DNA of 64,000 nt from Burkholderiaceae bacterium (lineage in GTDB: Bacteria > Pseudomonadota > Gammaproteobacteria > Burkholderiales > Burkholderiaceae), in contig JAGTRK010000003.1 of assembly GCA_018261955.1 (NCBI GenBank), positions 1 to 64,000 on the forward strand, read 5' to 3'. Shown piece by piece: positions 44,087 through 53,541 of the stretch (its first letter is position 1; each line of letters starts with the position of its first letter). Both the position numbers and the translations under genes were made by a program. The notes below the pieces were generated by a model. The model ran no database searches. It was not told the origin of the DNA and saw only the letters and a program-made list of their open reading frames with translations.

Positions 44087-46135
44087 TTACTCTTCTTCTT
44101 GCAACTCAAACTGACTGGCTAACTGCTGTTGAATGTGCGCAGGCACAGCAGCATAGCGCGCAAATTCAATCGAATAACTGCCTTGTCCGCCCGTCAAGGA
44201 TTTGAGGCGAGACTGATAATCGGCGATTTCTGAGAGCGGCACTTCGCCCGAGAGTGATGCCATGCCGTGGCTTTTTTCACCTGTGCCCGTGACATGACCG
44301 CGTCGACCCGATAAATCACCTGCCAAGTCACCGATATGGCTTTGTGGAATGGCGATTTCGATGGTCACAATCGGTTCCAACACAATCGGGTTGGCATTGC
44401 GTATCGCTTGGATGGTGGCTTTTTTAGCCGCGGATACAAACGCGATTTCTTTGCCGTCCACGGGATGGGTTTTGCCATCGTACACCGTGACTTTAACATC
44501 CTCAACTGGATGACCTGCCACGATGCCATCAGCCAATGCTTGGCGCACCCCTTTTTCGACTGCGGGCATGAAGACCCCTGGGATGACCCCACCTTTGATG
44601 GCATCGATAAACTCAAAACCTTCGCCACGACCTTTGGGCTCAACGCGTAGATGGACTTCGCCAAATTGTCCTGAACCGCCCGATTGTTTTTTATGGCGGC
44701 ACATGCCTTCGGCGGGCGCGGTGATGGTTTCACGGTACGGAATCATCGGCGGTTTGGTATCCACTTCGAGCTTATATTGATTTGCCATTTTTGCCAGTTT
44801 GGATTTGAGGTGCATTTCGCCCAAGCCACGAATCACGGTTTCATTTGAACTTGGATGACGCTCGATGATGAATGTGGGGTCTTCCATTGCCAGTTTGGCC
44901 AAAACCTCAAATAGTCGTTGCTCATCGCCTTTTTTACGGGTTTCGACCGCCAATCCTGCCATGGGTTTGGGAAATGCCAAAGGTGTCAGATGGATATGAT
45001 CTTCGTCGTGTGAGTCATGTAGCACACTGTCAAACTCGATGTCATCGACTTTGGCTATCGCACCGATGTCACCAGCGACCAATTCATCCACTTCAACCGT
45101 GTTTTTACCCTGCAATTGGTATAAGTGTGCCACTTTAAAGGGGCGTTTGGAGTCGCCGATGAACAATTGCATGTCTTTTTTAACTGTACCTTGATGCACG
45201 CGGAACACGCTGATTTTGCCCATATATGGATCGGCGATGATTTTAAATACATGTGCCAAAACATGTTTGTTTGCGGCAGGTTCGGCATGAAACGGTTCAG
45301 TTTGATTGCCGAGTTCACCTTTATAAAAAGGCGGTGGATTGGTCTCCAAAGGATTCGGTGCCAAAGATGCCAGCACATGAAGCAATTCTTTCACGCCCGC
45401 ACCTGTTTTCGCCGAGGTGAATAAAATTGGGATGAGGTGACCTTCGCGCAAGGCTTTTTCAAATGGCGCGTGTAGGTCTGCGGCACTTGGGTCTGCACCA
45501 TCTTCGAGGTACTGCGCGAGTAAATTCTCGTCCTCCTCAACGATTTGGTCAATCAGCGCGCGGTGGGCATTGGCAACCGACTCAAAATCGGCATCGCCTG
45601 CGTTGTGCTCAAGCACTTCAACCACATCCGCGCCGCCGTGTGCGGGTAAATCCAATACCATGCATTGCTTACCAAATGTCTCGCGAATCTCATTAATCAA
45701 TGCGGGCAAATCAACGTTTTCGGCATCGATTTTGTTGATGACAATCATGCGTGCGAGTTTGCGCTCGGTCGCGTACTGCATCATGCGCTCGGTCATCAAT
45801 TCAATGCCTGTTTGCGCGTTGATGACAATCAGCGCGGTGTCCACACCTGCCAATGCGGCGATGGATGTGCCCGAAAAATCAGGAAAACCCGCCGTGTCGA
45901 TGAGGTGAATGTGTGTGTCTTCATATGCAAAATTCACGACAGCGGAGGTGAGCGAGTGTCCTGCTTCTTTTTCGGCAGGGTCAAAGTCGCAGACAGTCGT
46001 ACCGCGTTCAATGCTGCCTTTATTGGGAATGGCACCTGTGGCGAGCAATAAAGCCTCTGCTAAACTCGTCTTACCGACTGCGCCGTGACCGACCAGAGCA
46101 ACCGAACGAATGGCTTGGGTGGGGTATCGTGACAT
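44087..46135 (-). CDS. Elongation factor G-like protein (EF-G paralogue)
   Basis: A 682-residue translational GTPase. G motifs are GHGAVGKT (residues 16-23), DTAGFPDF and NKID; domains II to V follow, with RGLGEMHLKSKLAKM, GQFGEVHLRVEP and the C-terminal SGRRGHVTG. It differs from standard EF-G in having GHGAVGKT in place of the usual AHIDAGKTT, and matches the EF-G-like/FusA2 group whose role is unclear. The start MSRYPTQ is 7 bases after GGAG; an ATG at 46147 lies upstream of that site. The linker between the G domain and domain II contains NPPPFYKGELG, which looks like a translated palindromic repeat. A MITE-like element lies 14 bases upstream of the start. Confidence 0.9.
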   Translation of the reverse strand: MSRYPTQAIRSVALVGHGAVGKTSLAEALLLATGAIPNKGSIERGTTVCDFDPAEKEAGHSLTSAVVNFAYEDTHIHLIDTAGFPDFSGTSIAALAGVDTALIVINAQTGIELMTERMMQYATERKLARMIVINKIDAENVDLPALINEIRETFGKQCMVLDLPAHGGADVVEVLEHNAGDADFESVANAHRALIDQIVEEDENLLAQYLEDGADPSAADLHAPFEKALREGHLIPILFTSAKTGAGVKELLHVLASLAPNPLETNPPPFYKGELGNQTEPFHAEPAANKHVLAHVFKIIADPYMGKISVFRVHQGTVKKDMQLFIGDSKRPFKVAHLYQLQGKNTVEVDELVAGDIGAIAKVDDIEFDSVLHDSHDEDHIHLTPLAFPKPMAGLAVETRKKGDEQRLFEVLAKLAMEDPTFIIERHPSSNETVIRGLGEMHLKSKLAKMANQYKLEVDTKPPMIPYRETITAPAEGMCRHKKQSGGSGQFGEVHLRVEPKGRGEGFEFIDAIKGGVIPGVFMPAVEKGVRQALADGIVAGHPVEDVKVTVYDGKTHPVDGKEIAFVSAAKKATIQAIRNANPIVLEPIVTIEIAIPQSHIGDLAGDLSGRRGHVTGTGEKSHGMASLSGEVPLSEIADYQSRLKSLTGGQGSYSIEFARYAAVPAHIQQQLASQFELQEEE

Positions 46136-46153
46136 CATTTTCTCCATGTTATA

Positions 46154-46262
46154 GAAACCTTTGCATAGCCTTGCCTTTAGAAATTTTGACAGTTTTTAAG
46201 TCTTGAAAATCAAAGACTTAAAAATCGCCGAAATGCTTTTAACGTTGCTATGCAAAGGTTTC
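46154..46262. mobile_element. MITE-like element with 16-bp terminal inverted repeats
   Basis: GAAACCTTTGCATAGC (46154-46169) and its exact reverse complement (46247-46262) bound a 109-bp non-coding element. Directly outside, TTATA occurs on both sides (46149-46153 and 46263-46267), as a target-site duplication would. Inside is a second palindrome, TTTTTAAGTCTT / AAGACTTAAAAA (46193-46224). The ends recall the CCTTTGCA-type termini of some IS5-family elements, from memory. It has no coding capacity and sits at the 5' side of the EF-G-like gene. Confidence 0.75.
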
Positions 46263-46382
46263 TTATATTGACAAAAACTGACAAAAAACTGGATTTCACA
46301 AACTATTTTCAGTGTTTTTAGTTGTGAATGAATAATGTCACTATACGCCGTTCAAGAGGGCTTTACAATTGAGAAAAAGCAA

Positions 46383-46414
46383 AAATAAAAGGGCAAACCA
46401 TGCTTGGATTTGCC
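46383..46414 (-). terminator. Terminator of map
   Basis: On the minus strand GGGCAAATCC and GGTTTGCCC pair around a short loop, followed by TTTTATTTTT. Confidence 0.82.
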
Positions 46415-46447
46415 CTCACTGTGTTTAACCAATCAGCCGATGACTGA

Positions 46448-47266
46448 TTAGCATTTTGTGGTTTTGATAAACTCGGGCAAAGGCGGATAGCCATCCGACA
46501 GCGACAGCACTTCATAACCCGTTGGTGTGACCAAAATCGTGTGCTCCCACTGCGCAGACAAACTGCGGTCTTTGGTTTTCACAGTCCAACCGTCTGACAT
46601 GGTGCGCAAATCGCGTTTGCCTGCGTTAATCATCGGCTCAATAGTGAAAATCATGCCTGCTTTTAGTTTCAAACCCGTGCCCTTGACCCCATAGTGCAGC
46701 ACCTGTGGTTCTTCGTGGAATACTTTACCGATGCCGTGCCCGCAATACTCACGCACTACGGACATACCGTTGGCATTGGCGTGTGCTGAAATCGCGGCAC
46801 CGATGTCGCCGAGGGTCGCGCCTTCTTTGACCTGCGCAATCCCAAGCCACATACATTCATAAGTGACCGCACACAGACGCTTTGCAGCAATTGAGGCTTC
46901 GCCGACGATAAACATGCGACTGGTGTCGCCAAAATAGCCAGCGGGTGTGATGACGGTGATGTCAATGTTGAGAATATCACCGTCTTTGAGGAATTTGTCA
47001 TCATCGGGCACGCCGTGGCAAATCACGTCGTTGAGCGAAATACAGCAAGATTTGGGGTAGGGTGGATAACCCGGTGGTTGATAGCCCAATGTGGCTGAGA
47101 CCGTGCCTTGTACATTAACCATATAGTCATTGATCATGCGATCCAACTCGCCTGTAGAAATGCCTGCGCGGATGTGGGGTTCAATGAAGTCCAAAACTTC
47201 AGAGGCGAATTTGCATGCCACACGCATGTGGGCGATGTCGGTTTCGGTTTTGATGGTAACGGGCAT
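46448..47266 (-). CDS. map: Methionine aminopeptidase, type I
   Basis: Map removes the initiator Met from new proteins. The 272-residue enzyme has the metal ligands in ILNIDITV, GYFGDTSRMF, EYCGHGIGKVFHEEP, TIEPM and QWEHTILV. Start MPVTIKTETDIAHMR fits the family; an ATG 39 bases upstream would add a tail (MNALCIFKKNTYR) and is less likely. It is divergent from rpsB, the usual arrangement. Confidence 0.95.
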   Translation of the reverse strand: MPVTIKTETDIAHMRVACKFASEVLDFIEPHIRAGISTGELDRMINDYMVNVQGTVSATLGYQPPGYPPYPKSCCISLNDVICHGVPDDDKFLKDGDILNIDITVITPAGYFGDTSRMFIVGEASIAAKRLCAVTYECMWLGIAQVKEGATLGDIGAAISAHANANGMSVVREYCGHGIGKVFHEEPQVLHYGVKGTGLKLKAGMIFTIEPMINAGKRDLRTMSDGWTVKTKDRSLSAQWEHTILVTPTGYEVLSLSDGYPPLPEFIKTTKC

Positions 47267-47331
47267 ACGGTAGGTATTCTTTTTAAAAATACACAAGGCG
47301 TTCATTTCAAATGATTTTTTGGTGGCTTGCC

Positions 47332-53474: not shown

Positions 53475-53492
53475 TTTAGAATGGTTTTATTC

Positions 53493-53526
53493 AAAAAAGC
53501 GCGACTGAAATCAGTCGCGCTTTTTT
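53493..53526 (+). terminator. Bidirectional terminator between efp and the rhodanese gene
   Basis: AAAAAAGCGCGACTGA, loop AA, TCAGTCGCGCTTTTTT: 16 perfectly paired bases with T runs on both strands. Confidence 0.92.
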
Positions 53527-53541
53527 GTTTTTGAAACGGCA

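Follow-up and report, generated by a model that had tools for sequence, protein, structure and literature searches.

A 109-bp MITE with IS5/ISAba23-type ends directly upstream of the presumed Shine-Dalgarno sequence of an EF-G paralogue gene in a Burkholderiaceae bacterium

In the part of the literature available to us, ISAba23 is described as an IS5-family member of 1249 bp whose repeats measure 16 bp and whose duplication measures 5 bp (PMC4110982). Two plasmid copies of ISAba23 that we retrieved are each 1249 bp long and have the ends GAAACCTTTGCACGAA and GAGACCTTTGCACGAA; one is flanked by TATGA on both sides and the other is without a duplication. ISNme1, an IS5-family element of Neisseria with the end GAGACCTTTGCAAAA, is given in an excerpt of PMC4596501 as the proposed parent of ATR, and the literature on CCTTTGCA as an inverted repeat includes this same paper, in whose available portion the ends of ISNme1 and of BrickBuilt appear. 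An ATR located upstream of relA was associated with strain- and condition-dependent fitness effects in meningococcus, according to the accessible text of PMC5383966.

The window analyzed here is a stretch of 64,000 nucleotides at the start of contig JAGTRK010000003.1 of a Burkholderiaceae bacterium (assembly GCA_018261955.1). Positions 46149-46267 consist of TTATA, a 109-bp element, and a second TTATA (Table 1). The element is A+T-rich (G+C content of 33.9% compared with 47.9% for the window), and the list of ORFs contained none of at least 80 amino acids across it. Its terminal inverted repeats are identical at 16/16 positions, with the arms reaching 17 bp once the adjoining A/T of the duplication is counted, and its inner 12-bp repeat is nested in a pair of 22-bp arms that are 82% complementary. 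The exact 16-bp terminal repeats, the nested 12-bp palindrome, and the 5-bp direct repeat TTATA described in a first-pass annotation of this sequence were all borne out. The predicted fold of 46130-46290 has a free energy of –48.2 kcal/mol, compared with –22.4 ± 3.6 kcal/mol for 200 shuffled sequences (z of –7.2), none of which folded as well (0/200). The window contains two perfect inverted repeats of at least 16 bp within 120 bp, the ends of the element and a hairpin at 53492-53527, whereas none were present in 30 simulated windows (order-1 Markov). The latter hairpin is a perfect 17-bp inverted repeat with runs of A and T at its ends and resembles a bidirectional terminator. A search of Rfam (46, 45900-46500, E-value mode) yielded no family at its gathering score; the four matches with an E value of up to 1 were all to microRNA-precursor families and were far below the gathering scores.

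Table 1. Features of the locus and copies of the element in the draft genome
Feature	Position	Strand	Remarks
EF-G paralogue gene, 686 aa from first ATG; likely start ATG 46135	44087..46147	-	ORF, NCBIfam, orthologues
GGAG, presumed Shine-Dalgarno, 8 nt from element	46142..46145	-	read from sequence; same in congeners
Target-site duplication TTATA, first copy	46149..46153	.	single in congeners
MITE, 109 bp, non-coding	46154..46262	.	five-copy alignment; exact 109-bp absence in two congeners; composition
Terminal inverted repeat GAAACCTTTGCATAGC, EF-G-proximal end	46154..46169	+	
Inner 12-bp inverted repeat, left arm TTTTTAAGTCTT	46193..46204	.	read from sequence
Inner 12-bp inverted repeat, right arm AAGACTTAAAAA	46213..46224	.	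read from sequence
Terminal inverted repeat GAAACCTTTGCATAGC, EF-G-distal end	46247..46262	-	
Target-site duplication TTATA, second copy	46263..46267	.	single in congeners
Sigma-70-like promoter TTGTAA-17-TATAGT, upstream of element	46340..46368	-	scan; hexamers in congeners
Terminator-like hairpin between map and EF-G	46389..46417	-	scan, 1 site against an expectation of 0.4; G001 has a counterpart
map, type I methionyl aminopeptidase, upstream neighbour of EF-G paralogue	46448..47305	-	
Copy 1, window element	C8:46154-46262		18 nt upstream of likely EF-G paralogue start
Copy 2	C8:342245-342353		88 nt upstream of leuS start
Copy 3	C8:305345-305453		42 nt upstream of carA start
Copy 4	C5:35492-35600		31 nt upstream of OmpA-family gene start
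Copy 5, decayed, extra nested hairpin	C3:104164-104324		between nrdA and end of metE

The genome to which the window belongs (G000; a draft of nine contigs totalling 1.85 Mb, with a rated completeness of 88.7%) was found to contain further copies of the element, five in total, in line with its description as mobile. Four copies are exactly 109 bp in length, are 84–90% identical to each other, and lie at unrelated sites, and the fifth is a decayed copy of 161 bp. The copy at EF-G is the sole one of the five with fully matched terminal repeats (16/16), with the other four matching at 14, 12, 15, and 11 of 16 positions. Duplications are exact at three of the intact copies (TTATA and TCAAT, 5 bp each, and TATCAA, 6 bp) and near-exact at the fourth (ACCTT/ATCTT, 4/5), and no clear duplication was apparent in the flanks of the decayed copy. 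With respect to the downstream gene, the element is in the opposite orientation at EF-G and in the same orientation at leuS, carA, and the OmpA-family gene, the latter three names resting on partial proteins. The decayed copy also holds a nested hairpin of ~50 bp (AAGGAAATACGGAACAACC...GGTTATTCCGTGTTTCCTT), which may be another small mobile repeat that entered the first one; an arm of this hairpin was present in 6 of 209 loci examined, and these six all cover the place of the decayed copy.

Two congeners, G001 and G002, provided the corresponding loci for comparison. The EF-G leader is empty in both (2/2), with the element absent and the target present once: BLAST blocks stop and resume exactly at the borders of the element with an overlap of 5 bases in the subject, and TATAA is single in the alignment of the congener leaders. 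The empty site with a single TTATA for which the first-pass annotation had proposed to look in relatives was therefore seen. The opposite outcome would have been a sole copy whose structure is kept at orthologous positions; it was not observed, which favours the interpretation as a MITE. The carA site is also empty in both congeners, with TATCAA once. In G001 the leuS site also lacks the element, as judged from a contiguous junction-spanning match of 112 nt at 87% identity, with the full-length alignment being untidy on its left side, and in G002 no more than 48 nt of the left flank gave a match. The loci of the two remaining copies (C5:35k and C3:104k) had no match in G001 or G002. A search of 198 other genomes revealed no copy and two partial matches (28 and 33 bp); given that at most four candidates were scored per genome, a strongly diverged copy could have been missed. 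A covariance search found no copy among the candidates scored in G001 (150 of 530) or G002 (150 of 327). At an E value of 0.001, the covariance model gave matches in four of the eight genomes covered. One of these is the own genome, and the other three are from Neisseriaceae, with weak matches (best E value of 4.7e-6) that the ends probably account for.

With regard to an insertion sequence with the same ends, the check proposed in the first-pass annotation was positive for the congener G001, in which 12-bp ends match, but not for the own genome, in which none was found. The 12-mer GAAACCTTTGCA has 16 exact occurrences in G001, 15 of them near contig ends (contigs C4, C5, C6, C9, C11-C15, C17, C25, C29, and C30, which are broken in this IS), and from this clustering, a usual sign of such a case, we infer a repeat that was too long for the assembler to resolve. 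The ends are of two kinds, with A running into an ORF start (MSIKHLTQLSLADGM...) and B not doing so. Among the 56 pairs of seven A and eight B flanks, five match as 5- to 6-bp duplications, compared with a mean of 0.13 and a maximum of 2 for offset controls; the search yielded no contiguous counterpart of the matching pairs, the regions having no match in G000 and G002. The ORF start is identical to the ISAba23 transposase at 18 of 38 residues (47%). The IS is readable as broken ends alone, which include 39 residues of the ORF, so that any catalytic domain would lie outside them, and this 39-residue fragment matched no Pfam or NCBIfam model and had no match in a plasmid search. The ends of the MITE and those of the G001 IS have the 12-bp repeat in common and nothing else of note.

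An autonomous element with these ends in the same genome, which is usual for a MITE but not essential, was not found in the own draft: no IS was detected with the 16-bp end (up to three mismatches) or the 12-bp end (up to one), and queries with the ORF start from G001 or with the transposase of ISAba23 retrieved no transposase. Given that the draft is 88.7% complete, the mobilizer may be absent or unassembled. The Pfam models DUF772 and DDE_Tnp_1 each matched in none of three genomes, the own one included, and the ISAba23 transposase query had no match in G000 or G002 and one weak match in G001 (E value of 9.8e-5). The same query matched in 177 of 398 genomes of the family, and these matches reflect IS5-family transposases in general. 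Two candidates from other genomes were set aside. A match in G042 (50% to the G001 ORF start) consists of a short remnant adjoining a GATCTTTGCACAACCC end, with no full IS in the stretch read; its 47-residue fragment retrieved ISAba23 in a plasmid search with an E value of 4e-3 at best. A 967-bp stretch of a Neisseriaceae MAG (L148 ~564-1530; G478:C164:2563-3529) was rejected as a parent IS because its ORF encodes DUF1643, not a transposase. This DUF1643 gene lies between GAAACCTTTGCAAAA-type ends, and the stretch may be a passenger cassette that ends of this kind have mobilized.

The sister copies, their duplications, the empty sites, and the matching IS ends in G001 uphold the earlier description of a compact non-autonomous element, and on this basis we conclude that it is a MITE with IS5/ISAba23-type ends and that it has moved. 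It is ordinary in kind and new as a member in its lineage. The copy in the window was almost certainly inserted at TTATA, directly upstream of the presumed EF-G Shine-Dalgarno sequence, after the split of this lineage from the two sequenced congeners and by a transposase acting in trans. The transposase that moved it would have been of the ISAba23 kind.

The EF-G paralogue matches NCBIfam NF009891 with a score of 929 bits (cut-off of 597), its orthologues in the two congeners are 97% and 95% identical to it, and another EF-G in the own genome (G000:C2:241-2322) is 32% identical. The nearest annotated plasmid matches to the EF-G region were from Paraburkholderia in 9 of 15 records, with an identity of ~66% over a third of the query, which is suggestive of a betaproteobacterium. 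In-frame ATGs are present at codons 1, 4, and 5, and the gap between the element and ATG 46147, 46138, or 46135 is 6, 15, or 18 nt, respectively. Given that GGAG (46145-46142) fits ATG 46135 best, with a spacing of 6, the first-pass estimate that the element ends about 14 bases from the EF-G-like start is fair. On the minus strand, the order of features is map, the terminator-like hairpin, the sigma-70-like promoter, the element, GGAG, and the EF-G start. The number of sigma-70-like sites in 46100-46500 (one) is similar to that expected from shuffled sequences (0.9 ± 0.9), so that the main support for this promoter is that its TTGTAA and TATAGT hexamers are unchanged in G001 and G002. The site predicts a transcript start near 46333. 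A scan of the G001 leader revealed a second weak promoter-like site in addition to the conserved one. A consensus scan, covering this one promoter type, detected no sigma-70-like site within the element or at its junctions.

Because the sole sigma-70-like site found is upstream of the element and conserved, what the element contributes to the EF-G paralogue is probably a hairpin in the mRNA leader and not a promoter. The first-pass annotation had offered these two as alternatives; the leader hairpin is the one to which the promoter-like site, with its hexamers in both congeners, points, and the supply of a promoter is less favoured. Judging from the sequence, the mRNA leader is probably 114 nt longer as a result of the insertion, with a strong stem now at a distance of 8 nt from the presumed Shine-Dalgarno sequence. 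With the ancestral promoter upstream, the element would be transcribed as a hairpin of ~109 nt in the EF-G leader, which could be a target of RNase III, tune translation, or be neutral. Comparison of predicted accessibility with the element and in the empty version of the window showed the first three Shine-Dalgarno bases to be more open and the AUGs to be less open in the presence of the element, and in the G002 leader, without the element, the AUGs were as closed as in the element-bearing leader. Given that these predictions are mixed, we claim no direction of effect, whether activation or repression. The locus and its empty counterparts form a natural with/without pair for the effect of a hairpin insertion 8 nt from the ribosome binding site of a translation-factor gene. 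A more far-reaching proposal, which we consider a long shot, is that lineage-specific spread of an IS5-type MITE placed hairpins upstream of the EF-G paralogue, leuS, carA, and the OmpA-family gene (four of five copies), at 18–88 nt from their starts, and that the EF-G copy is a new switch on a translation factor, either sensitive to RNase III or hindering the ribosome; if true, part of the translation machinery owes its present wiring to a mobile element.

That the element itself supplies the EF-G promoter in place of an ancestral one has a precedent in CREE of Neisseria, which can generate promoters at its ends according to the consulted part of PMC2649163, but it is unlikely here, given that the scan for one promoter type found only the upstream site, with hexamers intact in three genomes. 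We consider it still less probable, indeed very improbable, that the structure serves the EF-G paralogue as a regulatory leader, with an RNA acting in cis (an attenuator or autoregulatory site, for instance) that is a long hairpin by coincidence. Its strong fold (z of –7.2), its position between the conserved promoter-like site and the start codon, and the fully matched terminal repeats unique to this copy are in keeping with such a role. However, the copies precede unrelated genes (carA, leuS, and the OmpA-family gene) in either orientation to the gene, and the Rfam matches are sub-threshold and to microRNA precursors only. The empty sites in the congeners speak against an ancestral regulatory role, and we reject this explanation because the leader of both congeners, although otherwise conserved and retaining the promoter-like site, is without the element and has a single target. 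An extragenic palindrome of the REP/REPIN type or a transcription terminator, rather than a transposable element, would account for a palindromic, intergenic sequence, but the duplications, the precise empty sites, ends common to a multi-copy IS of a congener, and a scan that detected no terminator-like site within the element leave it a negligible probability.

Ends of the type carried by this MITE also occur elsewhere. A two-ended exact-pattern scan of genome contigs, in which the own genome was possibly not included, returned 45 stretches. Eleven of these are from Neisseriaceae (six from Alysiella crassa, one from Neisseria sp., and four from MAGs), with the ends GAAACCTTTGCAAAA or variants thereof and an exact 5-bp duplication at 7 of the 11 loci. 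A literature search identified no paper joining the full term for MITE with Alysiella. MITEs with these ends were located in or beside AGGCTGCCTGAA/AGGCAGCCTGAA motifs (L048, L050, L051, L057, L063, and L067), with the duplications AGCCT, AGGCT, or AGGCA. We take these motifs to be DNA-uptake-sequence dialects of Neisseriaceae, and the MITEs at them show an apparent target preference for uptake sequences. Ten of the 45 stretches correspond to a different element in one Caldisericaceae MAG, a separate family of 96–120 bp with the ends GAAACCTTTGA... (L054, L062, L068, L073, L075, L078, L081, L082, L086, and L089), and several of the other 24 look like coincidences in coding sequence.

Among known systems, ISAba23 of Acinetobacter/Moraxella resembles the element in its ends (GAAACCTTTGCAC.../GAGACCTTTGCAC...), 16-bp repeats, and 5-bp duplication, as far as given in the available part of PMC4110982, and the NH2-terminus of its transposase resembles the product encoded at the G001 IS end. 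The IS5/ISAba23-type end GARACCTTTGCA and the 5-bp duplication are present in the element, with one of the five copies having 6 bp. ISAba23 is, however, a full IS of 1249 bp with a transposase, whereas the window element is non-coding, is 109 bp long, and was compared at the ends only. The Neisseriaceae elements of 106–124 bp have ends of GAAACCTTTGCAAAA or close variants and a similar length, but their subterminal bases differ; because their interiors also differ by eye, we regard them as sharing a class of ends rather than forming one MITE family with the window element. ATR of Neisseria meningitidis is likewise an A+T-rich MITE, and the end of its parent ISNme1, as quoted in partial text, is nearly identical to that of the window element, with differences at the third base and beyond base 12. 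The available section of PMC5383966 gives a length of 181 bp and perfect repeats of 13 bp for ATR, compared with 109 bp and 16 bp here, and with its different ends the window element is not an ATR. Correia elements of Neisseria (CREE) are MITEs able to lie in mRNA leaders and to serve as RNase III substrates; in the accessible portion of PMC2649163 they have a mostly TA target and a different length and ends, and the duplications of 5–6 bp here, as opposed to a TA target, do not fit this assignment. The binding of CREE by RNase III and the fitness effects of ATR at relA are precedents, not evidence for the window element. BrickBuilt of Porphyromonas gingivalis shares an IS5-type end, with GAGACCTTTGCA in some copies, but contains a minisatellite, and its duplications vary in length and are missing in some copies (PMC4596501, in part). 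With its clean empty sites, the element described here is an example of a MITE with IS5/ISAba23-type ends from a lineage other than those of Neisseria and Porphyromonas.
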